Shown here one piece after another: positions 2,910 to 15,588 of a DNA stretch of 22,405 bases. The notes beneath the pieces are model-generated. The model saw nothing but the letters and a program-made list of their open reading frames with translations. It made no database searches and was not told the origin of the DNA. Source of the stretch: a virus. The stretch lies in the IMG/VR virus record IMGVR_UViG_3300044516_000830, positions 1 to 22,405 of that record, one strand, 5' to 3'. How positions within the stretch are numbered: the first letter of the stretch is position 1; the number at the start of each line of letters is the position of its first letter. The translations under genes were made by a program, and so were the position numbers.

Positions 2910-5900
2910 ATGGCAACACAAGCAAATCAAAAAGTATTCGTATCACCAGGCGTTTACACATCTGAAACCGACCTATCATTCGTAGCCCAAAGTGTGGGGG
3001 TAACGACTTTAGGTCTTGTTGGGGAAACTATAAAAGGCCCAGCATTTGAACCAGTATTCATAACAAATTACGATGAGTTCCAAGCCTACTTTGGTGGAAC
3101 CGAACCCGTTAAGTTTTATAACACTCAAATCCCAAAATATGAGGCGGCATATATTGCTAAATCATACTTGCAACAATCAAACCAATTGTTTGTTACAAGA
3201 GTATTAGGTTTGTCAGGTTATGATGCGGGTCCATCTTGGAGTTTATCATTAGTAGCTAATGTTGACCCAACAACTATCGGTGACCCATCAAACGCAACAA
3301 CGTTTACCGCAACATTCACGGGTACCTCATCAGGTACTACCGTTACGATTGTCAGTGGAGCGTTACCTGCTCAAGCTCAGTCAAATTTGAATGTTCAATA
3401 CAGATTACAAGACGGTTCAACATCTACAATACAAGATGACCTTAATGTTTATTTAGGTGGCATAATTAACACACCTTCTCTTTCGGCTACAACTTCTGTA
3501 ATGTACGGTGCAATTCCTAATACAGATTATTCAAATATAATTTTATCTTATCCTACAATCCAAAATCCATATGATTGTATAAACAATTTTGAACTTAACG
3601 ATTTAAGTGCGTCTTCAAATGACCCTTGGTATTATGCTAACTTTGACATTTCTTCAGGAAATAACTATACGGGTTATTCATTCTACTATGTTGTTAATAG
3701 TTTAAGTTCGGGCGGGACTGGTGTTTTCACGGGTACAATTACTGGTGAATCTTATACATTTACAGGTACTGCTTATACAGATTTTAATAATATGGTTGTT
3801 GGTACTCTCCGTTCAAGAGGTATTACTCAATATGTCAATTCTGTTGATAGTATTGACCACGGTCCTGTTTATGAAGTAGGTATTGATTATGATAACGACA
3901 ATGCTTGGGTTCCTAACAACTTACAATTAATTTGTACTAATCAATATTCGGGTATTACTCAAACACCATATGGAACATTCTTGTTATCAGGTGTAACTAA
4001 AGATAATAATACATTCTCATTAGAAACTTCATTATTAGCGTCTTCCGCAAAATACATCACAAAAGTGTTAGGGGTTGATAATTTTGGTAAATCAAGATTT
4101 GAAGTTCCAATTTATGTTGAGGAAATTTATCAAGGAAGTTTAAATTACGCTTATAGTCAAGGATACATTCGTGGGTTAAATTGTGACTTAATTGCATTGC
4201 CCGACGCAAGAAGTCAATCAAGTCAATCAATCGCTTGGAATTTAGAAAAATACCAATCACCTGAAACACCTTATTTAGTTTCTGAATTGAGAGGTAATAA
4301 AGTATATAACTTATTTAAATTCATTTCCATTTCTGATGGAGATTCCGCAAACACTGAGGTTAAGGTGTCAATTGCAAACTTATCATATAACAATATGTCG
4401 TTTGATGTTTTTGTTAGAAATTTCTTTGATACAGATGCAAACCCTGTTGTAATTGAAAAGTTTACCAATTGTAATATGGACCCAGCAACTAATAACTTTA
4501 TTGCGAAAAAAATTGGTTCGTCTAATGGTGAATTCGCTTTAATTTCAAAATATATCATGGTTGAAATGGCAAATGAGTATCCAATCGATTCTTTACCTTG
4601 TGGTTTCTACGGTTACACACAAAGAGAATATGAAGATGCTGCAATTTACTCATCACCATACCCTAAATTTAAAACAAAATACGATTTCCCTGGAGAGGTT
4701 ATTGCTAATCCACCTTTTGGAACACCCGTTGGTGGTTCAAATACTGTGGAATCTCCTGGAGATATCATAAGAAGAACTTATTTAGGTTTCTCTACACAAT
4801 ACGGAATTGATGAATCATTCTTAACTTACAAAGGAAAACAAAACCCACAATCTAATTGGGCTTTGGCGACTGACTCATTTAAATGGAATTACTTAAGTAA
4901 AGGTTTCCACATGGATTCGGGAGCAACTGTTGTTACAATTGCTAATACATCAATGACAAGTGGTCAAACAGCGTTTGAATGTGGTGTTGCAGAATTTAGA
5001 GCAGACCCAGCAACACAAGATAACCCATACTACTTTATCTACTCAAGAAAATACACTGTGTGTTTCGCAGGTGGATTTGACGGATGGGATATTTACAGAG
5101 AATGGAGAACTAACCAAGACAGATTCCAATTAGGACAGTCAGGTTATTTGGCAGGTACTGCACCATCTTCAAGATACCCAACTGCAACAGGTAACGGATT
5201 GTTCAAGAGAATTATTGTTCAAAACAATACTCAGGACTTTGCAAATACTGACTACTACGCTTACTTACTTGGTATTTTGACATTCGCTAATCCTGAAGCA
5301 ACTAACATTAACGTGTTTGCAAGTGCAAGTATTGACTATATTAACAATTCAAATCTTGTAGAAGAAGCTATTGACATGATTCAATACTCAAGAGCTGACT
5401 CGGTTTATATCTGTACAACTCCTGATTACCAAATGTTTACTCCAGATTCAACAAGTTCTTTGGATATCATCTATTCACAAGAAGCGGTTGACAATTTGGA
5501 TAACACAGGAATTGATTCTAACTACACCGCAACTTACTACCCTTGGATTTTAACAAGAGATACAGTAAACAATACACAAATTTACTTACCACCAACAGGT
5601 GAGGTTTGTAGAAACTTAGCGTTGACTGATAACATTTCATTCCCTTGGTTCGCATCTGCGGGTTACACAAGAGGTCTTGTAAACTCAATCAAAGCTAGAC
5701 AAAAACTTACACAAACTGACAGAGATACATTGTATCAAGGTAGAATCAACCCTATCGCAACTTTCTCTGATGTTGGAACTGTAATTTGGGGTAATAAAAC
5801 ATTACAAATTGCTGACACTGCACTTAACAGATTGAATGTAAGAAGATTATTACTTCAAGCTCGTAAGTTAATTTCCGCAGTAGCTGTAAGATTATTGTTT

Positions 5901-6137
5901 GAACAAAACGACCAAATCGTTAGACAACAATTCTTGGATAGTGTTAACCCTATCTTGGATTCAATCAGAAGAGACAGAGGTTTATACGATTTCCGTGTAA
6001 CTGTTTCATCTTCACCTGAAGACTTAGATAGAAACACATTAACAGGTAAAATTTACTTAAAACCTACGAAGGCATTAGAATTCATCGATATCGAATTCTT
6101 TATTACTCCAACAGGAGCTTCGTTTGAAAATATTTAA
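2910..6137 (+). CDS. Tail sheath protein (gp18-like), enlarged
   Basis: The contractile tail sheath subunit, 1075 residues. It polymerises around the tail tube and contracts on infection. The N-terminus (about 1-105) has the classic sheath opening: VSPGVYTSETDLS, then GLVGETIKGPA and the ITNYDEFQAYFGG segment. The C-terminal part (about 700-1075) has CFAGGFDGWD near residue 720, then LNVRRLLLQARKLI and a terminal RDRGLYDFRVTVS...LEFIDIEFFIT strand pair, which in sheath proteins builds the intersubunit mesh. T4 gp18 has 659 residues; the extra length is mostly a Thr/Ser/Gly/Tyr-rich beta region at about 105-420, probably surface domains. Tyrosine codons are mostly TAT in that middle part and mostly TAC in the C-terminal part. 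No Shine-Dalgarno sequence precedes the ATG. An intrinsic terminator follows 10 bases after the stop. Confidence 0.97.
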   Translation: MATQANQKVFVSPGVYTSETDLSFVAQSVGVTTLGLVGETIKGPAFEPVFITNYDEFQAYFGGTEPVKFYNTQIPKYEAAYIAKSYLQQSNQLFVTRVLGLSGYDAGPSWSLSLVANVDPTTIGDPSNATTFTATFTGTSSGTTVTIVSGALPAQAQSNLNVQYRLQDGSTSTIQDDLNVYLGGIINTPSLSATTSVMYGAIPNTDYSNIILSYPTIQNPYDCINNFELNDLSASSNDPWYYANFDISSGNNYTGYSFYYVVNSLSSGGTGVFTGTITGESYTFTGTAYTDFNNMVVGTLRSRGITQYVNSVDSIDHGPVYEVGIDYDNDNAWVPNNLQLICTNQYSGITQTPYGTFLLSGVTKDNNTFSLETSLLASSAKYITKVLGVDNFGKSRFEVPIYVEEIYQGSLNYAYSQGYIRGLNCDLIALPDARSQSSQSIAWNLEKYQSPETPYLVSELRGNKVYNLFKFISISDGDSANTEVKVSIANLSYNNMSFDVFVRNFFDTDANPVVIEKFTNCNMDPATNNFIAKKIGSSNGEFALISKYIMVEMANEYPIDSLPCGFYGYTQREYEDAAIYSSPYPKFKTKYDFPGEVIANPPFGTPVGGSNTVESPGDIIRRTYLGFSTQYGIDESFLTYKGKQNPQSNWALATDSFKWNYLSKGFHMDSGATVVTIANTSMTSGQTAFECGVAEFRADPATQDNPYYFIYSRKYTVCFAGGFDGWDIYREWRTNQDRFQLGQSGYLAGTAPSSRYPTATGNGLFKRIIVQNNTQDFANTDYYAYLLGILTFANPEATNINVFASASIDYINNSNLVEEAIDMIQYSRADSVYICTTPDYQMFTPDSTSSLDIIYSQEAVDNLDNTGIDSNYTATYYPWILTRDTVNNTQIYLPPTGEVCRNLALTDNISFPWFASAGYTRGLVNSIKARQKLTQTDRDTLYQGRINPIATFSDVGTVIWGNKTLQIADTALNRLNVRRLLLQARKLISAVAVRLLFEQNDQIVRQQFLDSVNPILDSIRRDRGLYDFRVTVSSSPEDLDRNTLTGKIYLKPTKALEFIDIEFFITPTGASFENI

Positions 6138-6147
6138 TAAACATAAC

Positions 6148-6175
6148 GGGGGTACAATTAGTACCCCCTTTATTT
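6148..6175 (+). terminator. Intrinsic terminator after the sheath gene
   Basis: GGGGGTAC (6148-6155) pairs perfectly with GTACCCCC (6161-6168) around a 5-base AATTA loop, followed by TTTATTT. The 8-bp stem has six G-C pairs, exceptional in such AT-rich DNA. It lies just after the sheath stop and just before the HAD gene start at 6183. Confidence 0.9.
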
Positions 6176-6182
6176 GCCAAGT

Positions 6183-7013
6183 ATGAAAAGACAACTTAGA
6201 GAGGGATTTAAGGCTGAGGGAACACCAGATATGAAATATTATGCGTTTGATTGGGATGACAACATTGTTCATATGCCAACAAAGATAATGTTAAAAACTG
6301 AAGATGGTGATGAAGTTGGTATGAGTACAGATGATTTTGCGGAATACAGAAGTAAAATTGGAAAAGAAGATTTTGATTATAATGGTGATACCATTGTTGG
6401 ATTTTCTGAAGAACCATATAGAAACTTTAGAACCGCAGGTGACAAAGATTTTTTGGTTGATGCTATGAGAGCAAAACTTGGACCGGCATTTAATGATTTT
6501 AGAGAAGCGATTAATAACGGGTCAATATTTTCAATTATTACTGCGAGAGGTCACAACCCCAACACTTTAAAACAAGCCGTATACAATTATATTATTGACG
6601 GGTTTCATGGAATAGATAAAGACCAACTCGTTAAGAACCTTAAAAAATATAGGTCGTTTTTTGACGAGGAAGATATGACGGACGATGAATTAATCAAATC
6701 GTATTTGGACCTTAACAAATATCATCCAGTGTCTTTTGACGATGAAGAAGGTGCTGCCAACCCTGAAGAAGCAAAAGTTCGTGCTATGGAAGAGTTTGTT
6801 TCTTATATTAAGAAAATGTCAAAAAAGTTAAATAAAAATGCCTTTATTAAAAATGATGTATCTAATAACTTTGTTCCGGAGCAACCTAGTATTGGATTTT
6901 CAGATGATGATATTAGAAATGTAGAAGTAATGAATAATTATTTTAAAGATAAACCAGATAATATAGTTAAGACTTATTCTACTGCTGGAGGCGTTAAAAA
7001 GGAATATAAGTAG
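6183..7013 (+). CDS. HAD-superfamily phosphatase
   Basis: A 276-residue protein from ATG at 6183. A TTG nine bases earlier is in frame but lies in the terminator tail and is less likely. ATG at 6231 (MKYYAFDWDDN) is another possible start that begins right at the domain. Motif I is FDWDDN (nucleophile D23, acid/base D25), motif II is IITARG (T120), and motif IV is GFSDDD (D241-D243). A Lys for motif III is probably among the several lysines at about 197-215. HAD enzymes form an aspartyl-phosphate intermediate; here the substrate is unknown. A cap-like insertion lies between motifs I and II, and an acidic helical stretch (DEEDMTDDEL) follows motif II. A nucleic-acid end-processing phosphatase like the one in T4 Pnkp is one possibility. 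It sits between the sheath and tube genes, insulated by a terminator upstream and a candidate promoter downstream, a moron-like arrangement. Confidence 0.85.
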   Translation: MKRQLREGFKAEGTPDMKYYAFDWDDNIVHMPTKIMLKTEDGDEVGMSTDDFAEYRSKIGKEDFDYNGDTIVGFSEEPYRNFRTAGDKDFLVDAMRAKLGPAFNDFREAINNGSIFSIITARGHNPNTLKQAVYNYIIDGFHGIDKDQLVKNLKKYRSFFDEEDMTDDELIKSYLDLNKYHPVSFDDEEGAANPEEAKVRAMEEFVSYIKKMSKKLNKNAFIKNDVSNNFVPEQPSIGFSDDDIRNVEVMNNYFKDKPDNIVKTYSTAGGVKKEYK

Positions 7014-7116: not shown

Positions 7117-7605
7117 ATGGCTGATTTATTAATGAAAATGCCGATACCTTACGAACCAAAACGCCAAAACCGTTTTATTTTAAGGTTTCCGTCAAGTTTG
7201 GGTATCAACGAATGGTTTGTTGAAAGTGCTGCAAGACCATCAATTAAGATTAATTCAACTGAAATACAATTTCTAAACACCTCTACATTTGTAGCTGGTA
7301 GATTTAACTGGGACCCAATCAGTGTTAAGTTCCGTGACCCTATTGGACCATCAGCGGCTCAGGCTCTTATGGAGTGGGTTCGTTTACACGCTGAATCGGT
7401 GACAGGTCGTATGGGTTATGCTGCGGGTTACAAAAAAGACATCGACCTTGAGATGTTGGACCCAACAGGAGTTGTTGTTGAGAAATGGATTCTTTACGGA
7501 ACATTCTTAACTGATGTAAACTTCGGAACATTATCTTATAGTCAAGATGCGTTAGCGGATATTACAGCTTCTTTGAGAATGGATAGATGTGTGTTAGTTT
7601 ACTAA
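7117..7605 (+). CDS. Tail tube protein (gp19-like)
   Basis: A 162-residue protein, almost the same length as T4 gp19 (163 aa). Stacked hexamers of this protein form the inner tail tube inside the sheath. The sequence opens with a short N-terminal arm, then NRFILRFPSSLGINEWFV. The middle carries the PISVKFRDPIGPSAAQALMEWV segment (about residues 67-88), and the protein ends in ADITASLRMDRCVLVY. The beta strand, DPIGPSA loop and amphipathic helix, with a final hydrophobic strand, are typical of T4-type tube proteins. It lies downstream of the sheath, as gene 19 follows gene 18 in T4, but here a HAD phosphatase gene separates them. It probably has its own transcript, from the promoter region at 7014-7116 to the terminator at 7639-7673. 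Confidence 0.93.
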   Translation: MADLLMKMPIPYEPKRQNRFILRFPSSLGINEWFVESAARPSIKINSTEIQFLNTSTFVAGRFNWDPISVKFRDPIGPSAAQALMEWVRLHAESVTGRMGYAAGYKKDIDLEMLDPTGVVVEKWILYGTFLTDVNFGTLSYSQDALADITASLRMDRCVLVY

Positions 7606-7638: not shown

Positions 7639-7673
7639 TAACCGTAAAGCTAATAAACTTTACGGTTATTTTT
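7639..7673 (+). terminator. Intrinsic terminator after the tail tube gene
   Basis: TAACCGTAAAG (7639-7649) pairs perfectly with CTTTACGGTTA (7658-7668) around an 8-base loop, an 11-bp stem, followed by TTTTTATATATG. The T-run leads directly into the next gene's ATG at 7678, so little or no leader remains between terminator and start codon. Confidence 0.9.
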
Positions 7674-7677
7674 ATAT

Positions 7678-8421
7678 ATGGACAATCAATCAAGAGACCA
7701 CGGTCAAGACAATTTCACACTACCACACGATGTGGTACAATTACCATCACAAGGTATTTTTTATAAAAACAAAAAGAAATCAATTAAAGTTGGTTATCTT
7801 ACCGCATCAGATGAAAACATTTTGATGGGTGGTGCCGCTGATTTAACAATGACTTTATTGAGGGCAAAAATTTATGAACCAGATGTTAAGGTTGAAGATT
7901 TAATTGAGGGTGATGTTGAAGCAATTTTAATATTTTTAAGAAATACTGGATTTGGTCCTGAAATGGTATTAAATGTTACAGACCCTGTAACTAAAAAACC
8001 ATTTAAAAGTACCGTATCGTTAGACCAACTAACTATTATTAATGGACAACAACCAAGTGAAGATGGTTCATTTACTATTTTATTACCAAAATCTCAATCA
8101 TCAATTAAATTAAAACCATTAAGTTATGGTGAAATTATGGAGATTGGTAAAATGGCTGAAACATATCCACAAGGAAGAGTTGTTCCAAAAATTACTTGGA
8201 GAATGCAAAAAGAAATTATTGAAGTTGATGGTTCAACTGACAAAGCTATGATTGCAAAATTTGTTGAGTCAATGCCAATCTCTGACTCAAAATTCGTAAG
8301 AAACTTTATGAATGAAAACGAACCAAGATTGGATATGACCAAAACAATTACAGCCCCGTCAGGAGAAAAACTAACAGTTAATGTTGGGTTTGGGGCTGAC
8401 TTTTTTCGCCCTTTCTTCTGA
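7678..8421 (+). CDS. Baseplate hub / tail-assembly chaperone (gp26-like)
   Basis: A 247-residue protein placed between tail tube and tape measure, the usual site of tail-assembly chaperone genes. The N-terminal part (about 18-60) has the pattern LPSQGIFY...IKVGYLTASDENIL, which matches the T4 baseplate hub family of gp26 (LPS+G.PY, then a V+PLT...EE.L-like strand). An acidic helix with DVEAILIFLRNTGFGPEM follows at about 84-105. A second half contains LKPLSYGEIMEIGKMAE. The protein ends GFGADFFRPFF, similar to the FFWP-type ends I know for this family. There is no Shine-Dalgarno sequence. The last 47 bases overlap a small +1 reading frame at a UUU UUU CGC site, so the gene probably yields a short form (this one) and a long fused form. 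The role in baseplate hub versus tail-tube assembly is inferred from family and position. Confidence 0.7.
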   Translation: MDNQSRDHGQDNFTLPHDVVQLPSQGIFYKNKKKSIKVGYLTASDENILMGGAADLTMTLLRAKIYEPDVKVEDLIEGDVEAILIFLRNTGFGPEMVLNVTDPVTKKPFKSTVSLDQLTIINGQQPSEDGSFTILLPKSQSSIKLKPLSYGEIMEIGKMAETYPQGRVVPKITWRMQKEIIEVDGSTDKAMIAKFVESMPISDSKFVRNFMNENEPRLDMTKTITAPSGEKLTVNVGFGADFFRPFF

Positions 8422-8560
8422 TTATAGAAAGATACAGATAGATGAATTTTACTATCTGACAACATTAATGAATATTTCTTATCAAGATTTTGAAAGAATG
8501 CCGTTGTTTGTAAGAAAATATTTATTGGATAAATGGATTGAAGATAAAAAGAAGGACTAA
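8381..8560 (+). CDS. +1-frame extension of the chaperone gene (frameshift product C-terminus)
   Basis: The +1 frame relative to the gp26-like gene is open from 8375 to a TAA at 8558-8560. If Phe-tRNA slips from UUU (8404-8406) to UUC (8405-8407), translation continues GCC CTT TCT TCT GAT. This adds 50 residues (ALSSDYRKIQIDEFYYL, then SYQDFERMPLFVRKYLLDKW) to the first 243, giving a 293-residue protein. The added part is a compact helical domain with a MP..VRKYLLDK pattern that I recognise from C-terminal domains of related T4-like phage hub proteins. The alternative is separate initiation at ATG 8381 (59 residues). The stop codon lies inside the stem of the following terminator, which marks this frame as real coding sequence. 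It recalls the G/GT tail chaperone pair of lambda, encoded between tail tube and tape measure. Confidence 0.75.
   Translation: MLGLGLTFFALSSDYRKIQIDEFYYLTTLMNISYQDFERMPLFVRKYLLDKWIEDKKKD
8401..8409 (+). promoter_or_regulatory. Candidate +1 ribosomal frameshift site (UUU UUU CGC)
   Basis: In frame 0 the codons are GAC TTT TTT CGC CCT. A P-site Phe-tRNA (anticodon GAA) on UUU can move one base to UUC, which pairs better, while CGC in the A site is likely a slow codon in this AT-rich, AGA-using phage. UUU CGN is the same core as the +1 shift site of influenza PA-X. The site lies 12 bases before the frame-0 stop. No clear downstream pseudoknot was seen. Confidence 0.6.
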
Positions 8561-8585
8561 AAAATTAGTCCTTCTTCTATTTATA
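8549..8585 (+). terminator. Intrinsic terminator after the chaperone gene
   Basis: AAGAAGGACTAA (8549-8560) pairs perfectly with TTAGTCCTTCTT (8565-8576) around an AAAA loop, a 12-bp stem followed by CTATTTATA. The left arm includes the last codons and the stop of the +1 frame. The tail contains TATTTATA (8578-8585), the same element seen upstream of other genes, so this may be a combined terminator/promoter before the tape-measure gene. Confidence 0.85.
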
Positions 8586-8604: not shown

Positions 8605-10473
8605 ATGGCAGATAATCTTAACGAATCGTACGACAACCTTAAAAAAAATATTGACAGTTTAGGTTCTCCTATAGATAAAATATTACAGTCAATTGAGGAC
8701 ATGGCTAATGAGGCCGATAAACTCAATGTGGCGTTTGTTGGGGGTAGAGTAAGACTTGACGAAATGAATGATGCTGCTGCTAAGTCAGCCGCGGGTATTA
8801 TTCGTTTAGGTGGAGATATTGGTGATATTTCCAAGACTATATCAGGAATTGCTGAAGGTTCAAGAAGACAAGTTATTGCAACTGAAGACCAAGTTAGTAA
8901 ACTTTATGCTGCTACTGAAATTTTGGGTGGTACTGCAGGAGGGCTAGTTGAAATTTTTGGTAATGTTGGTATTGAAGTATCTCAAATTGGTACAAACCTA
9001 GAAAGTTCAATTGAATATATTCAAAGTGTTGGTTTAAATGCTCGTGAGGTTATGGAAGATGTGACTGGTAGCATGTCACAAATGAACCGATTCCAATTTG
9101 AAGGCGGTGTGAAAGGTTTAGCAAAGATGGCGGCACAAGCATCGATGTTAAGGTTTGATATGCAACAAACCTTTACTTTAGCGGATAGGGTTTTAGACCC
9201 TGATGGGGCTATAGAAGTTGCTGGAGCCTTTCAAAGATTAGGTGTTTCTGCAGGAAATTTGGCGGACCCATTCGCTTTAATGAATCAATCAATTAATGAC
9301 CCATCGGGTTTACAAACTAGTTTATCTGAAGTTGCAAAACAGTTTACAGAATTTGATGAAAAAACAAAAACATTTAAAATAAATCCTCAAGGTGTTTTAA
9401 CACTTAGAGAAATGGAAAAACAAACTGGTGTTAGTGCTGTGGAAATGAGTAAAATGGGTCTTGCCGCGGCAGACTTAGATAGAAGACTTTCTGCTATTAG
9501 TCCATCGCTTGATTTTGAAGATGAAGAAGATAAGAAACTTATCGCCAATATGGCCACTATGGATAAAAGTGGTGAGTACACAGTACAACTTAAGAATGAC
9601 AAGACTGGTGAAATTGACAGAATTAAATTAGGTGAATTAACAAATGAACAACTTATCGCCTTAAGAAAACAACAAGAGGAATCACCAAAAACTTTAGAAG
9701 ATATTCAAAAGACCCAATTAAATGTTGTAGAGAACATTGATAGGACTCTCTCAAGTAATGTTGCAAAAGGTACGTTTGGTGTTGCAGGTTCTTCGGTTGT
9801 TAGAGGTAATTACACGGGAGCTGATAGAATTAGCCGAGCAGTTAGTAGTTCTGTTGACAATGCGGTACCTGAAAGTGCGGTAATTATAGACAACGTTAAT
9901 AACGCAATTGAAAAAATGAGTGCGTTATTTATGGCTAAAGATGCAAATAAAATAAGTGCTGACGATTTTGCTAAAAAATTAGCATCACTTGAGGATACTA
10001 TTCTAAAAGATGCAAATAGTTTAGGTGAAAAAGGAATGAATGCATTTAAAGATATCATTGCAGAATCAAGTAAAAAAGTTACGGGAAATAGTGGTATTGA
10101 AAAAGAATTTAGAAGTTTAAGTCAAGAAATTTTAAGTGCAACAGGTAAACCAGTAACCGCAACAGAACATCTTAAAAAGAAAGCTGAAGAGGAAAAATCG
10201 TTATCGTATGCCGATATTATAGGTAGAAAAAGTCAAAGTCCTACCGAAAAAACAGGTGCTGGTACATCAACAAACAGTGGAACATCAACAAATAAAGTTG
10301 ATGTTGGAGGTACTATAACATTTAAATTTGATTTACCTCCAGGTACAACACTTAACCAACAACAATTAAACGCTGCGTTTAATAGTGAAGAGTTTAAACA
10401 ATATATTGCCAACCTTACAAAGAAAAATTCTTCAGAAAACAAAGGGTCTGGTGTTGTATCCTACGGACGATAA
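8605..10473 (+). CDS. Tape measure protein
   Basis: A 622-residue protein directly after the chaperone frames, the usual position of the tape measure, which fixes tail length and is ejected ahead of the DNA. The N-terminal half is rich in predicted helices with heptad-like spacing and small residues (KNIDSLGSPIDKILQSIEDM; AAAKSAAGIIRLGGD). The middle has alternating Gly/Ala-rich helices (GGVKGLAKMAAQASML; VAGAFQRLGVSAGN). The C-terminal fifth is low-complexity and Gly/Thr/Ser-rich (TGAGTSTNSGTSTN), then ends with a short globular piece. The length is close to T4 gp29 (590 aa). At about 0.15 nm per residue the tail should be near 93 nm. No strong membrane segment is visible. A 4-codon mini-frame (ATG 8585, stop 8597-8599) lies just upstream of the chosen ATG. 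Sequence similarity to known tape measures is generic; assignment rests largely on position, length and composition. Confidence 0.75.
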   Translation: MADNLNESYDNLKKNIDSLGSPIDKILQSIEDMANEADKLNVAFVGGRVRLDEMNDAAAKSAAGIIRLGGDIGDISKTISGIAEGSRRQVIATEDQVSKLYAATEILGGTAGGLVEIFGNVGIEVSQIGTNLESSIEYIQSVGLNAREVMEDVTGSMSQMNRFQFEGGVKGLAKMAAQASMLRFDMQQTFTLADRVLDPDGAIEVAGAFQRLGVSAGNLADPFALMNQSINDPSGLQTSLSEVAKQFTEFDEKTKTFKINPQGVLTLREMEKQTGVSAVEMSKMGLAAADLDRRLSAISPSLDFEDEEDKKLIANMATMDKSGEYTVQLKNDKTGEIDRIKLGELTNEQLIALRKQQEESPKTLEDIQKTQLNVVENIDRTLSSNVAKGTFGVAGSSVVRGNYTGADRISRAVSSSVDNAVPESAVIIDNVNNAIEKMSALFMAKDANKISADDFAKKLASLEDTILKDANSLGEKGMNAFKDIIAESSKKVTGNSGIEKEFRSLSQEILSATGKPVTATEHLKKKAEEEKSLSYADIIGRKSQSPTEKTGAGTSTNSGTSTNKVDVGGTITFKFDLPPGTTLNQQQLNAAFNSEEFKQYIANLTKKNSSENKGSGVVSYGR

Positions 10474-10533: not shown

Positions 10534-13500
10534 ATGGGTAGTCCGTTAGATTATATAAGTACCGAGGTTTTTAGAAAAAAACTAATTGTCCGAAATTTAG
10601 TACCATATGCTAAATCACCTAGTCCTGCGACCCCGCCAATAACTTTTGAGGTTATACAAAGAGATTTAACACCTGTTGATAGTCCTGATTTTCTAATTGA
10701 TACTCCATACATCGCCAATTCACAATTTTATCCACTTAACAAGTGGGGAAATCAAGGGGGATACTACCAAGCACCCGACCTTACAGGTAATTTAAATACA
10801 ACATCAAATCAAGGTGAATATGGACCTGGTCAACAGGATGCTTATATTGTGAACACAGGATTTGCGGCAACTCAAAAATGGAGACCATTAAATGCGTATT
10901 CAAGCCCAAACAACTTTGATGCTGGTGAAGCTGTTACTAGTTTAGAAACTGTTAGACCTGACCAAGATAGACTACCAAACGGTCAACCTTACTTTACATT
11001 TGTACCTTCATCGTATAGACCTGTTTCAATCTTATTAAATCCCGACCCACAGGGTAGTGATGGTTTATTAAGTGATGACTCCTTTATAGCTCGATTGGGG
11101 GCAAAAACTTTAAAGAAAGAGTTCCAAGACCGTATTGGTAGAGAGTTATTAAGACAAACTCTTGGTCGTGCCAACATATTAAATGTTAATAGTGGTACAA
11201 ACCTTGTTAATATTTTAACAGGTCGAGTTCCTTTAATTGAACCAAATTATAACATTACGGTACCGTCAAATCCATTGGGTGCTGCTGCCGACTTTGCTCT
11301 TAGATTAGGGGGAAGTACTTTACCGTTCTCAACAATTCCTGGTTCTTATTTTGACCAAAGTATTAATCCACCACAACCAACAACAATACAACAATCATTG
11401 TTGGCAAACCCACTTGCGGTTGGAGGAAAATTTATTAGTAATTTATTAGGTGCTAGTAAGACAGGTACACAAATATTCTACGAAAATACGGGCCAAGGTC
11501 AAAAATCTATTTTATTTAAAAATCTTAACTTTAATAAATTTAAACCAAACTACGATAGAACTCTATTAGATAGATTGGGTGGTGCAATTGTCGGGACTAA
11601 TACAAATAACTCCAACTTTTATGTTGGTAGTACATCTTCAGACCCATCAAGAATATTTTCACCATCAGGGTCGTTACCAAATGATGCGTTTGGTAATGAA
11701 CAACAAGACCCAGTTTATGGACCATCTGAGTTAGCTCAGTTATATGAAGGTCCAAGTAAGGAGATTAGACTTGGTGCTAACGGCCCAACATATAGTAATG
11801 GTGGTGGTATTGAAGGTGGATTCACATGGGTGTCTCCAAAGTATAAAGGTAATGCTGGTAAAAAAGTTGGTGTTGGAGGTTTAATAACAGACCAAGACTC
11901 GGACTTTAAACCATCGTCTTATAACTCAACAGAGTCCACAGAAAGAACTTTTAAGGAAGGTTCTATACTTGATAAGACACAAAGAATTATTGATAGCCAA
12001 CCACAAGGTGGTAAAAGATTACAACACGTTGGTAATGCAATGGACCAAGTCAGCAAAGTATTCAATGATGGATACACAGAAATGACAAAGGGTTCAAGAG
12101 TATTAACTTACGTTGGGGCGATTGGACAAGAAGTTGGAACAGAGTATTGTAGAGTATTTGCTAAAGATATACCATACCTACAATATAACGACCTTCAAAA
12201 AACTGATGGTATTACAACTGAAGGTAGAAGATTTTCATATTCTGTTTTAGATAAGACATATAACCTTAACATTGCACCAAACAAACAAGAGGGTGGACAA
12301 GATTCATCTAACATTATTGGTACAATGAATAATGCTTATGCCAAGAAATATATGTTCTCATTGGAGAACTTGGCGTGGGCAACATCAAACTCACCAGGTC
12401 TTGCGGTTTCTGATTTGGCGGTATGTGAAAGAGGTCCTAATGGTGGTAGAGTTATGTGGTTCCCACCTTATAACTTAACATTTAATGAATCAGTTCAGGC
12501 GAACTGGACTCCAAATGATTTTATTGGTAGACCTGAACCAATCTATACTTACAAAAATACAAGTAGAACGGGTACTTTAACATGGGATATTGTTGTTGAC
12601 CATCCGTCAATATTAAATGTTATTGTTAACAAGGTATTGGCAAACGAAACAAACAAAACAAGAGTTGATAGTATATTAGATTCATTCTTTGCGGGATGTA
12701 GAAAATATGATTTATATGAATTGGCCAAAAAATATTATACAATAAATCCAAACGATTTGTTTCAAATCCAACAGGCAATTACATCTAAAGAAATTACAAG
12801 AGAACAGATGCAATTTGCTGTTAGTACAATAACCGTGGATGCTCAAGTTGCGGGTGCAAACGGTGCGGGTAATGGAAGTGGTGGTGCAAACAGTTCAAGT
12901 ACACCACCTCCTGGTAGTCCTGCGTATTTTATGGAAAAATATGCTCAAATTGGTTTTTATTTTGGTAATGATTTTCCTAAACCAAAGACATCACCAAATT
13001 ATACCGAAGAATATAATAGATACACAAGTTCTACAAACAAAGCTTTATATGCTAGTAAATCAAATGGCACTCAATTAACTCGGGCGTTTGATACTATGGT
13101 CACACCAAATTATGTGATTGCACAACAAATGGCTATTGATATTGCAGAACAAATTAAAAATAGTGAAAGTGGTAGTGTGACACTTATTGTAGATTCAAGT
13201 TGCTCTGCACCACAAACTGAAGCATATAACCTAGCATTATCTACCAGAAGGATTGATTCTGTGATTAAATTTTTTGCTGAAAATGCTGCAACCAAAGATT
13301 ATGTGAAACAACAAAAATTAATAGTAAAAAGAGGTCAGGGATTTGGTGAAACAACTAGTTCTTCTCCATTAGTTTCAAAAACAACCCAACCACCATATGC
13401 GTTACCACTCACACCAAATCTTCCCGCGGTAAATTGTACTGATACAAATGGTACTGTTGTTGGAGGTGATACCATGGCATCTACTGAAGTATTCACAACA

Positions 13501-15588
13501 AACGCAATGGCTTGTAGAAGAGCCTATATTTCAGAGATTAAATCAACCCTAAAATCACCACCACCAGCACCACCAAATCCAATAAAACAAACACAAACGG
13601 TTGTTACGGGTAATGTTGTTACTACAACAGAAAAGGTAAATACTACAGAAACAGTTGTAGTACCAAGAGATAATATTAGTAAAAGAGTTCTAAGAGCTTT
13701 ATTATCTGAGTGTGATTATTTTGAAGTTATTAAGGAAGAAACTCCTATGGTTTTTGATAATCTTAAAGATAAGTTAAAATTCTTTGAACCTGCATTCCAC
13801 TCAATGACACCTGAGGGACTTAATACAAGGTTAACATTTTTACAACAATGTATGAGACCTGGTGACACAATACCTGTAGTTAAATCTATTGGGGGTAGAG
13901 ATGTTTTGGAATATAACAATGCCACAAATACTGCGTTTGGTGCGCCACCAGTATTGATTTTAAGAGTTGGGGATTTCTTTAATACTAAAATCATCCCAAC
14001 AAGTTTGACAATTGCTTATGAAGGATTGGATATTAACCCTGAGGGTATTGGTGTCCAACCTATGATTGCAAAAGTGACAATGGCATTTAACTTTGTTGGA
14101 GGTAGCGGATTAAAAGAATCTGTCGACAAATTACAAAATGCGTTAACATTTAATTACTATGCAAATACTGAAATTTATGATGATAGAGCTGACCCAACAG
14201 ATTCAAGCTATAAAGTAATTGATAAAGATTTCTTACAGTTTGCTGCGATAAGTAATGTTACCCCTCCAACAATTAACGATGCACAACCTAATAACGGTTT
14301 AAGTAATGAATCAACTATTGGAACTATATTAACTAACACTAGTAGTTTAAGTGCTCAAACAGGTACCCTTAGTTATCAAACATTTATGGATAAGTTTGTT
14401 ACGGAAACACAAAATTATTTTACAAATGTTGTAAATAAAAGTAAAGAAACTGTAAACCAATATAATAACGCATTACGTCAACAATGGATGTTAGAAAGAA
14501 ATTATCAACAAGGTAAATTCTTATTGACCGAAGATGGTGAGACGATTTTATTTGGTAAACCTTATAATCTTGAAAAAAGAATTGATACGGTTTTTGAAGA
14601 TTTAATATCTGATATTAAAAATGACGATGATGAATTTATCAAATTTATTAAAGATAAAAATTTTGATTTTACAAATAAAACGATTAGACAAGTTAAAGAA
14701 AATTTCACCAACTTTGTTAAAAACAAAAAAGGTACGTATCAAAATGCGGTAACAACCATTACTCAAAGTATGGTTAATACTCAACAAACTTATGTTGCTT
14801 ACATTGCAAGGGCAAATACAATTCCATATTATGTACCATCGTTTTCTGGAACAGGTACGGATGGTTCACAAGATAAAATTGGTAATGTTAAATCATTTGT
14901 CACAATACCAACAACAAGTATTGACACAAGTTCAAAAAATGCGTCAAACACATTAGAAGAATTGAGTTATGATATTGTAACTATTAAAAGTGCTATAACA
15001 GCATTTAATGCGGTTACAATGTCCGCATATACTTTTAGCTATAACACTAACACATATAGTGGTATTTTAGTATTTGAACCTAATTATCAATTACCGCAAG
15101 GTCAAAAAGTTTTTGTTCCATTTAATCAGTCGTCAATTTTTGAGATTGACTCATTTAGAAGAGAGTATATGTTACTTTCTGACGATGTTGTCGATTCAAA
15201 AAAATATGAAACCTTTAAAAATGCAATGATTGGTAATATAATTAATAATGTGGGATTACTTGGTACTGCGGAAAAAGGACCTATATTAATTGAGGCGTTT
15301 GATGAGTATTGGGATAGAAAGGCAAAAGGTTTATTTGAAAGTGAAAATAATATTACTAAAGAATTTATTAATAGTATTGAAAAAGAAAAATTACAAGACT
15401 TCTTGAAGTTCACACCATTCCCAACTAAGAAAAGATTGTTTACCTATACTACTGAAAACGCAGGAACAGACTCTCAAAAGACTTTGATTAAAGGATTGGG
15501 GGCAACTGAAAACTATAACACAAATAATAAAACGTGGAATGATGAAATATCTGCAGACGTATACGTATCAAAAGTAAAATTTAACTAA
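10534..15588 (+). CDS. Large baseplate protein (gp48/gp54-like) with OmpA-like module
   Basis: A 1684-residue protein between tape measure and gp53-like genes, where baseplate-tube junction proteins are expected. Residues about 641-692 (WFPPYNLTFNES, then DFIGRPEPIYTYKNTSR, LTWDIVVDHPS) and about 1171-1222 (GIGVQPMIAKVTMAF, then FVGGSGL, DKLQNALTFNYYAN) look like conserved baseplate segments found in large tail proteins of related phages. Between two low-complexity linkers (Gly/Asn/Ser then PPPGSP at about 773-798; SPPPAPPNP and a Thr/Val-rich run at about 1006-1043) sits an OmpA-like domain. It has VTLIVDSSCSAP, then AYNLALSTRRIDSVIKFF near 896-912 and GQGFGE near 934. OmpA-like domains bind peptidoglycan. 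The C-terminal third has charged helices and no recognised domain. T4 gp48 and gp54 have 364 and 320 residues, so this is greatly enlarged. The stop overlaps the next start (TAATG). Confidence 0.7.
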   Translation: MGSPLDYISTEVFRKKLIVRNLVPYAKSPSPATPPITFEVIQRDLTPVDSPDFLIDTPYIANSQFYPLNKWGNQGGYYQAPDLTGNLNTTSNQGEYGPGQQDAYIVNTGFAATQKWRPLNAYSSPNNFDAGEAVTSLETVRPDQDRLPNGQPYFTFVPSSYRPVSILLNPDPQGSDGLLSDDSFIARLGAKTLKKEFQDRIGRELLRQTLGRANILNVNSGTNLVNILTGRVPLIEPNYNITVPSNPLGAAADFALRLGGSTLPFSTIPGSYFDQSINPPQPTTIQQSLLANPLAVGGKFISNLLGASKTGTQIFYENTGQGQKSILFKNLNFNKFKPNYDRTLLDRLGGAIVGTNTNNSNFYVGSTSSDPSRIFSPSGSLPNDAFGNEQQDPVYGPSELAQLYEGPSKEIRLGANGPTYSNGGGIEGGFTWVSPKYKGNAGKKVGVGGLITDQDSDFKPSSYNSTESTERTFKEGSILDKTQRIIDSQPQGGKRLQHVGNAMDQVSKVFNDGYTEMTKGSRVLTYVGAIGQEVGTEYCRVFAKDIPYLQYNDLQKTDGITTEGRRFSYSVLDKTYNLNIAPNKQEGGQDSSNIIGTMNNAYAKKYMFSLENLAWATSNSPGLAVSDLAVCERGPNGGRVMWFPPYNLTFNESVQANWTPNDFIGRPEPIYTYKNTSRTGTLTWDIVVDHPSILNVIVNKVLANETNKTRVDSILDSFFAGCRKYDLYELAKKYYTINPNDLFQIQQAITSKEITREQMQFAVSTITVDAQVAGANGAGNGSGGANSSSTPPPGSPAYFMEKYAQIGFYFGNDFPKPKTSPNYTEEYNRYTSSTNKALYASKSNGTQLTRAFDTMVTPNYVIAQQMAIDIAEQIKNSESGSVTLIVDSSCSAPQTEAYNLALSTRRIDSVIKFFAENAATKDYVKQQKLIVKRGQGFGETTSSSPLVSKTTQPPYALPLTPNLPAVNCTDTNGTVVGGDTMASTEVFTTNAMACRRAYISEIKSTLKSPPPAPPNPIKQTQTVVTGNVVTTTEKVNTTETVVVPRDNISKRVLRALLSECDYFEVIKEETPMVFDNLKDKLKFFEPAFHSMTPEGLNTRLTFLQQCMRPGDTIPVVKSIGGRDVLEYNNATNTAFGAPPVLILRVGDFFNTKIIPTSLTIAYEGLDINPEGIGVQPMIAKVTMAFNFVGGSGLKESVDKLQNALTFNYYANTEIYDDRADPTDSSYKVIDKDFLQFAAISNVTPPTINDAQPNNGLSNESTIGTILTNTSSLSAQTGTLSYQTFMDKFVTETQNYFTNVVNKSKETVNQYNNALRQQWMLERNYQQGKFLLTEDGETILFGKPYNLEKRIDTVFEDLISDIKNDDDEFIKFIKDKNFDFTNKTIRQVKENFTNFVKNKKGTYQNAVTTITQSMVNTQQTYVAYIARANTIPYYVPSFSGTGTDGSQDKIGNVKSFVTIPTTSIDTSSKNASNTLEELSYDIVTIKSAITAFNAVTMSAYTFSYNTNTYSGILVFEPNYQLPQGQKVFVPFNQSSIFEIDSFRREYMLLSDDVVDSKKYETFKNAMIGNIINNVGLLGTAEKGPILIEAFDEYWDRKAKGLFESENNITKEFINSIEKEKLQDFLKFTPFPTKKRLFTYTTENAGTDSQKTLIKGLGATENYNTNNKTWNDEISADVYVSKVKFN

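Follow-up and report, generated by a model that had tools for sequence, protein, structure and literature searches.

The gene at positions 7678..8421 (+ strand) of the viral DNA analysed here very probably encodes two tail assembly chaperones of a T4-type phage with a contractile tail, a reading to which we give a probability of about 0.93 on comparative sequence grounds. The short form (TAC-N) resembles gp26 of phage T4, and an extended form (TAC-NC), which would be reached by a +1 ribosomal slip near the 3' end of the gene, resembles gp51. The DNA (hereafter the window) is a stretch of 22,405 nt corresponding to positions 1 to 22,405 of the IMG/VR record IMGVR_UViG_3300044516_000830.

The gene, its two reading frames and its surroundings

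The frame-0 gene (247 aa) ends in GAC TTT TTT CGC CCT TTC TTC TGA (protein end DFFRPFF*). The putative slip site is TTT TTT C (UUU_UUU_CGC; 8401..8407, +), with the two TTT codons at 8401-8403 and 8404-8406, C at 8407 and CGC (8407-8409) as the A-site codon. The +1 frame passes the frame-0 stop and runs for 46 further codons to a TAA at 8558-8560, within a terminator-like hairpin with a 12-bp stem (8549..8576, +) that overlaps the end of the extension. Skipping one base gives a product of 293 aa with 50 residues beyond F243 (A-L-S-S-D-Y...KKKD plus TAA; 8408..8560, +), hereafter the extension, TAC-C or T domain. From the slip to the frame-0 stop, CGC CCT TTC TTC (8407..8418, +) is dual-coded, reading RPFF in frame 0 and ALSS in +1. 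An earlier reading made from the sequence alone had proposed a +1 slip that bypasses the stop and adds 50 residues ending in the terminator stem, and the sequence is letter for letter as it described. It placed the slip on UUU to UUC, and a candidate shift site is indeed present there, but slippage at the first UUU (UUU_U) is equally possible and gives the same peptide, D-F-F-A-L-S-S-D-Y, as slippage at the second (UUU_C).

Another terminator-like hairpin lies 5' of the gene (7639-7668), so the chaperone gene is flanked by two terminators. Upstream is the tail tube protein (gp19-like; 7117..7605, +; phrog_4542, E 5.5e-25), and downstream is a 622-aa ORF (8605..10473, +) that matches no family and is, by position, the probable tape measure protein. 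The same order of tube, chaperone and tape measure is found in the phages immuto and LIS04, in which the tape measure is annotated. The tail sheath (2910-6137), upstream of the tube, is unusually long (1075 aa) and has its sheath family matches at the C-terminal end. The ORF between sheath and tube (6174-7013) has no Pfam match, and its start, YYAFDWDDNI, resembles a HAD-type phosphatase motif; a 1684-aa ORF downstream of the tape-measure-like ORF (10534-15588) has a weak OmpA-like match (E 0.039). No Shine-Dalgarno sequence precedes the start codons of the main genes in the window, which suggests a host among the Bacteroidota. A host search of GTDB genomes found no relative, and a nucleotide search against phage records returned no match.

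The frame-0 protein matches PF12322 (T4_baseplate; 27.6 bits, cut-off 24.5) and phrog_150 ('baseplate hub'; E 3.4e-12), a family that contains both gp26 and gp51 of T4. The AlphaFold model of TAC-N, which was predicted apart from that of the extension, has a pLDDT of 86.8 and gives 56 Foldseek matches in BFVD at E<=0.001, to T4-like baseplate hub (gp26-type) assembly proteins, among them the baseplate hub subunit of SP-15 (E 1.3e-17). NCBIfam holds no match, nor does the PDB by sequence or by fold. T4 carries two members of the family, and one was found in each of seven distant phages searched, in each of 12 long IMG/VR contigs (90-317 kb) and in the record of the window, none of these contigs and records being proven complete. 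The two-gene organisation of T4, with separate gp26 and gp51, is thus not what we observe here, where the gene is present in a single copy.

Conservation of the putative slip site and the start of +1 coding

A first scan of IMG/VR gave 80 loci, and later scans reached down to about 52% identity. The close relatives (clade A) comprise 100 distinct sequences, four of them cut by contig ends; the 96 that are long enough to judge share 52-100% identity and fall into 49 clusters when grouped at about 80% similarity. All 96 have an open +1 ORF, and the -1 frame has a median length of only 20 nt. When this one sequence is shuffled at constant composition, a run of 46 open codons has a probability of about 0.005, and across the relatives the +1 ORF is conserved far beyond chance. 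An in-frame UUU_Y occurs within the overlap in 96/96 clade-A genes. The second slip codon is TTT in 95/96 and the third is CGN in 95/95 (CGC 37, CGT 29, CGG 27, CGA 2), with no AGA or AGG, the codons that make up 87% of upstream Arg codons (AGA 76.5%, AGG 10.9%); in this codon count a 90%-identity subgroup with TTT TTT CTC was scored one site off. Both CGC and CGG occur about 0.2 times per 1000 codons in the window, and CGC is very rare in the genome. Part of this preference for CGN may stem from the residues encoded in +1 (Phe, then Ala, Val or Gly) and not from selection for slow decoding, so it is firmer evidence that the +1 frame is used than that the codon is slow. The TTC TTC that follows is near-invariant even though TTT makes up 75% of Phe codons, as expected for dual coding, and the dual-coded stretch hardly varies, with the lowest divergence in the region. 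The comparison that the sequence-only reading had called for, namely whether homologues keep UUU UUU CGN and the +1 frame, therefore turned out positive, and clade A showed neither of the outcomes that it named as contrary (a domain fused in frame, or one encoded separately behind a conserved start of its own).

A GGG codon lies 6 nt 5' of the slip (8392..8394, +; GGGG with the next base) in 90/96 clade-A genes, compared with 9.5% of upstream Gly codons, and it may act as a stimulator, although the genes of the window are without Shine-Dalgarno sequences. A search for a conserved stimulatory RNA structure gave none: a consensus fold of 11 relatives contained 20 pairs, none with a compensatory change, and we rejected a GGGG...CCUU hairpin as stimulator because it is broken in the CGG variants.

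Two more distant clades share the +1 arrangement. Clade B includes Flavobacterium phage immuto, LR756508, Microcystis phage Mel-JY01, Rhodothermus phage RM378 and IMG/VR loci; the +1 ORF is present in 78/80, all 78 with an in-frame UUU_Y in the overlap, and the site is mostly TTT YTT TGG, with TTC TTT TGG and, rarely, TTT CTA TGG. Clade C includes Bacillus phage SP-15, Listeria phage LIS04, Streptococcus phage GXN1 and others; here the +1 ORF is present in 23/23, mostly with TTT TTT CGN, and UUU_Y in 19/23. The remaining four (L288, L292, L293 and L298) keep the +1 ORF with AAU CCC AGU in place of UUU_Y, and may use CCC_A as the slip site. Taken together, 193 of 197 members of clades A-C have an in-frame UUU_Y, and the layout, the slip and the small helical domain are common to immuto, Mel-JY01, RM378, SP-15, LIS04 and GXN1.

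Where the +1 frame begins to be coding can be seen from the pattern of substitutions. Among single-difference codons from -39 to -19, that is from the equivalent of ATG 8381 to the slip, the synonymous share is 64% in frame 0 and 9% in +1. Beyond the frame-0 stop, in the T region, 57% are synonymous in +1 as against 19% and 13% in the other offsets. These proportions indicate that the +1 frame codes for protein once past the slip and that upstream of it, including at ATG 8381, only frame 0 is under selection.

This pattern bears directly on the possibility that the +1 ORF is translated independently as a separate gene, from ATG 8381, from a nearby TTG or by coupling at the TGA. The ATG (8381..8383, +) does open an ORF of 59 aa, and the missing Shine-Dalgarno sequence before it says nothing, since the genes of the window generally lack one. 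Separate ORFs for the domain do occur in the wider family: the domain is a separate ATG-led ORF in two clade-B loci that have lost the TTT at the slip site (L395 and L399) and in the phage Cygsa01, it is annotated as a separate small gene in Cygsa01, cyanophage Sf-FS3 and Rhizobium phage RL38J1, and the annotation of the Mel-JY01 gene as two genes would fit as well. However, 43/96 members of clade A, 48/80 of clade B and 17/23 of clade C lack any +1-frame ATG ahead of the domain, and 35/199 sequences have neither ATG, GTG nor TTG there. The slip codons are conserved at the nucleotide level, and selection on the +1 frame is absent between ATG 8381 and the slip and present after it. The combination of frame-0-only selection 5' of the slip with an unconserved ATG speaks for access to the domain by frameshifting and not by initiation, as the sequence-only reading had also preferred, and we regard ATG 8381 as unused and a separate start as very unlikely.

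Slippage of the polymerase on the T6 run, giving a subset of mRNAs one U short, appears slightly less probable still. The TTTTTT run is present in about 91/96 clade-A genes, but it is short, the +1 ORF is kept in clade B (TTT CTT TGG) and in TTC TTT CGN variants that have no T6, and polymerase slippage would not require the conservation of CGN 3' of the run. We therefore reject both translation from a separate start and transcriptional slippage on the comparative evidence. A sequencing or assembly error (indels in T-runs are a common error type) or a decayed in-frame fusion is refuted because hundreds of independent assemblies, and isolate genomes as well, show the same arrangement, with a functional stop and selection on both frames, and has a negligible probability.

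Relatives that encode the domain in the -1 frame

The putative +1 slip has a counterpart in the opposite direction. In clade D, which consists of the jumbo phages Atu_ph07 (L177), PA5oct (L179) and RAS14 (L180) and their relatives (L304-L361), the domain lies in the -1 frame, and the heptamer U_UUU_UUY is found at the same Phe-Phe position in 47/47; the gp26-like gene of these phages is annotated without the extension. Clade E (LR756511-like) has the domain in -1 in 10-11 of 13 members with the same heptamer, and one locus (L363) is open in both frames. Cyanophage Sf-FS3 and the Rhizobium phages IC12 and RL38J1 also carry the domain in -1, with T_TTT_TTC or T_TTT_TTG, and Cygsa01 has it in -1 without such a heptamer. 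By comparison, U_UUU_UUY occurs in only 3 of 199 +1 overlaps, and only a few of the +1 genes have U as the base preceding the UUU run. On a tree of the N part with 124 rows, a quick reconstruction with SH-aLRT support only and some long branches, the layout labels need 5 changes, and the starred branches force at least 2 switches of direction. We consider it likely that recoding at the Phe-Phe hinge of the gp26 family (UUU UUY) is ancient and has changed direction several times, with +1 at UUU_CGN or UUU_YUU_UGG and -1 at U_UUU_UUY, set by the bases beside the run, and that T4 escaped through gene duplication and a few relatives by splitting the domain off as its own ORF.

The added domain and comparison with known systems

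When profiles of the extension are compared between clades A, B, C and E, they match one another at 95-98% probability, and the pooled profile matches clade D at 92.6%. Against the C-terminus of T4-type gp51 with its cyanophage and Rhizobium homologues, the pooled profile reaches 90.9% (E 1.1e-6), compared with 1.1% for the best of 30 column-shuffled profiles; for clade A alone the match is weak (50%, null maximum 17.6%). These profile matches indicate a relationship between the added domain and the C-terminal part of T4 gp51. The clade-A extension is modelled as three helices with a pLDDT of 91. The top BFVD match of the model is a tail assembly chaperone of a Microbacterium phage (prob 0.97, TM 0.88, rmsd 0.9), with further tail assembly chaperones lower in the list; the domain is short, and all Foldseek E-values for it are above 0.1. 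The analogy with the G/GT chaperone pairs of other phages, drawn at the outset from position, is supported by that position, by this homology to gp51 and by the likeness in fold to annotated chaperones.

In the mechanism that we infer, which extends to the slippage itself, its rate, the UUU used and the function of the products as chaperones, most ribosomes would end at TGA 8419 and release the gp26-like TAC-N of 247 aa. A minority, with UUU (Phe) in the P site and a slowly decoded codon (CGC) next, would move forward by one base as the P-site tRNA-Phe leaves UUU and pairs anew with the overlapping UUU or UUC; in bacteria, UUU_Ynn is especially prone to +1 shifting (PMC5009743). Reading on in +1 would give the 293-aa TAC-NC, with its three-helix domain homologous to the gp51 C-terminus. 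By analogy with lambda gpG/gpGT, TAC-N would coat the tape measure protein and the extension would recruit tube subunits.

Among long-tailed phages, T4 has so far counted as the exception to frameshifting of the chaperone. Our data point to frameshifting as common across the wider T4-type family, with the gp26/gp51 pair of T4 as a duplicated alternative to it. The data also provide a large natural set in which one recoding site is used in both directions, usable for studying what determines +1 versus -1, and they correct the annotation of many genomes in which the small domain is missing or mis-started. The tail assembly chaperones of T4-like phages are reportedly the subject of a study by Vladimirov, Gautam and Davidson from 2022 (Virology 566:9). 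A later paper refers to that study for -1 signals of the poly-T kind in the TAC-N genes of such phages.

The type of mechanism is known, and what appears to be new, judging from sequence comparison, is its occurrence as a +1 shift in the gp26/gp51 lineage of T4. The tail assembly chaperone pair gpG/gpGT of lambda (Xu, Hendrix, Duda 2004; reviewed in PMC5009743) is similar in that a single gene between tube and tape measure gains a small C-terminal domain by a frameshift close to its 3' end; lambda shifts by -1, whereas here the shift would be +1 at UUU_Y and TAC-N belongs to the T4 gp26/gp51 family. G-T frameshifting has been stated to be widespread 'except T4' (PMC5009743). With T4 the gene shares its family (phrog_150, PF12322), and gp51 consists of a gp26-like part and a helical domain related to the +1 extension, but T4 carries its two copies on opposite strands and uses no frameshift, in contrast to the one copy and +1 slip proposed here. 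Poly-U slip sites near the end of TAC-N are also found in the -1 frameshifted chaperones of Pakpunavirus Adele and Andersonviridae (PMC12846349) and in SPP1 17.5, with UUUUUUC (PMC6316719), and the -1 gp26 relatives described above likewise use U_UUU_UUY; in our gene the direction is the opposite. The closest likeness of the site itself is to +1 shift sites that combine UUU_C with an A-site CGN codon, among them the bacterial UUU_Ynn sites that include YopN-TyeA and the influenza PA-X site UCC_UUU_CGU (PMC5009743). These lie in other genes, PA-X is translated by eukaryotic ribosomes and has UCC in front, and the stimulator here is only a candidate. The resemblance to PA-X noted from the sequence alone holds for UUU_CGN, but a better precedent is found in the +1 sites of bacteria with UUU_Ynn.
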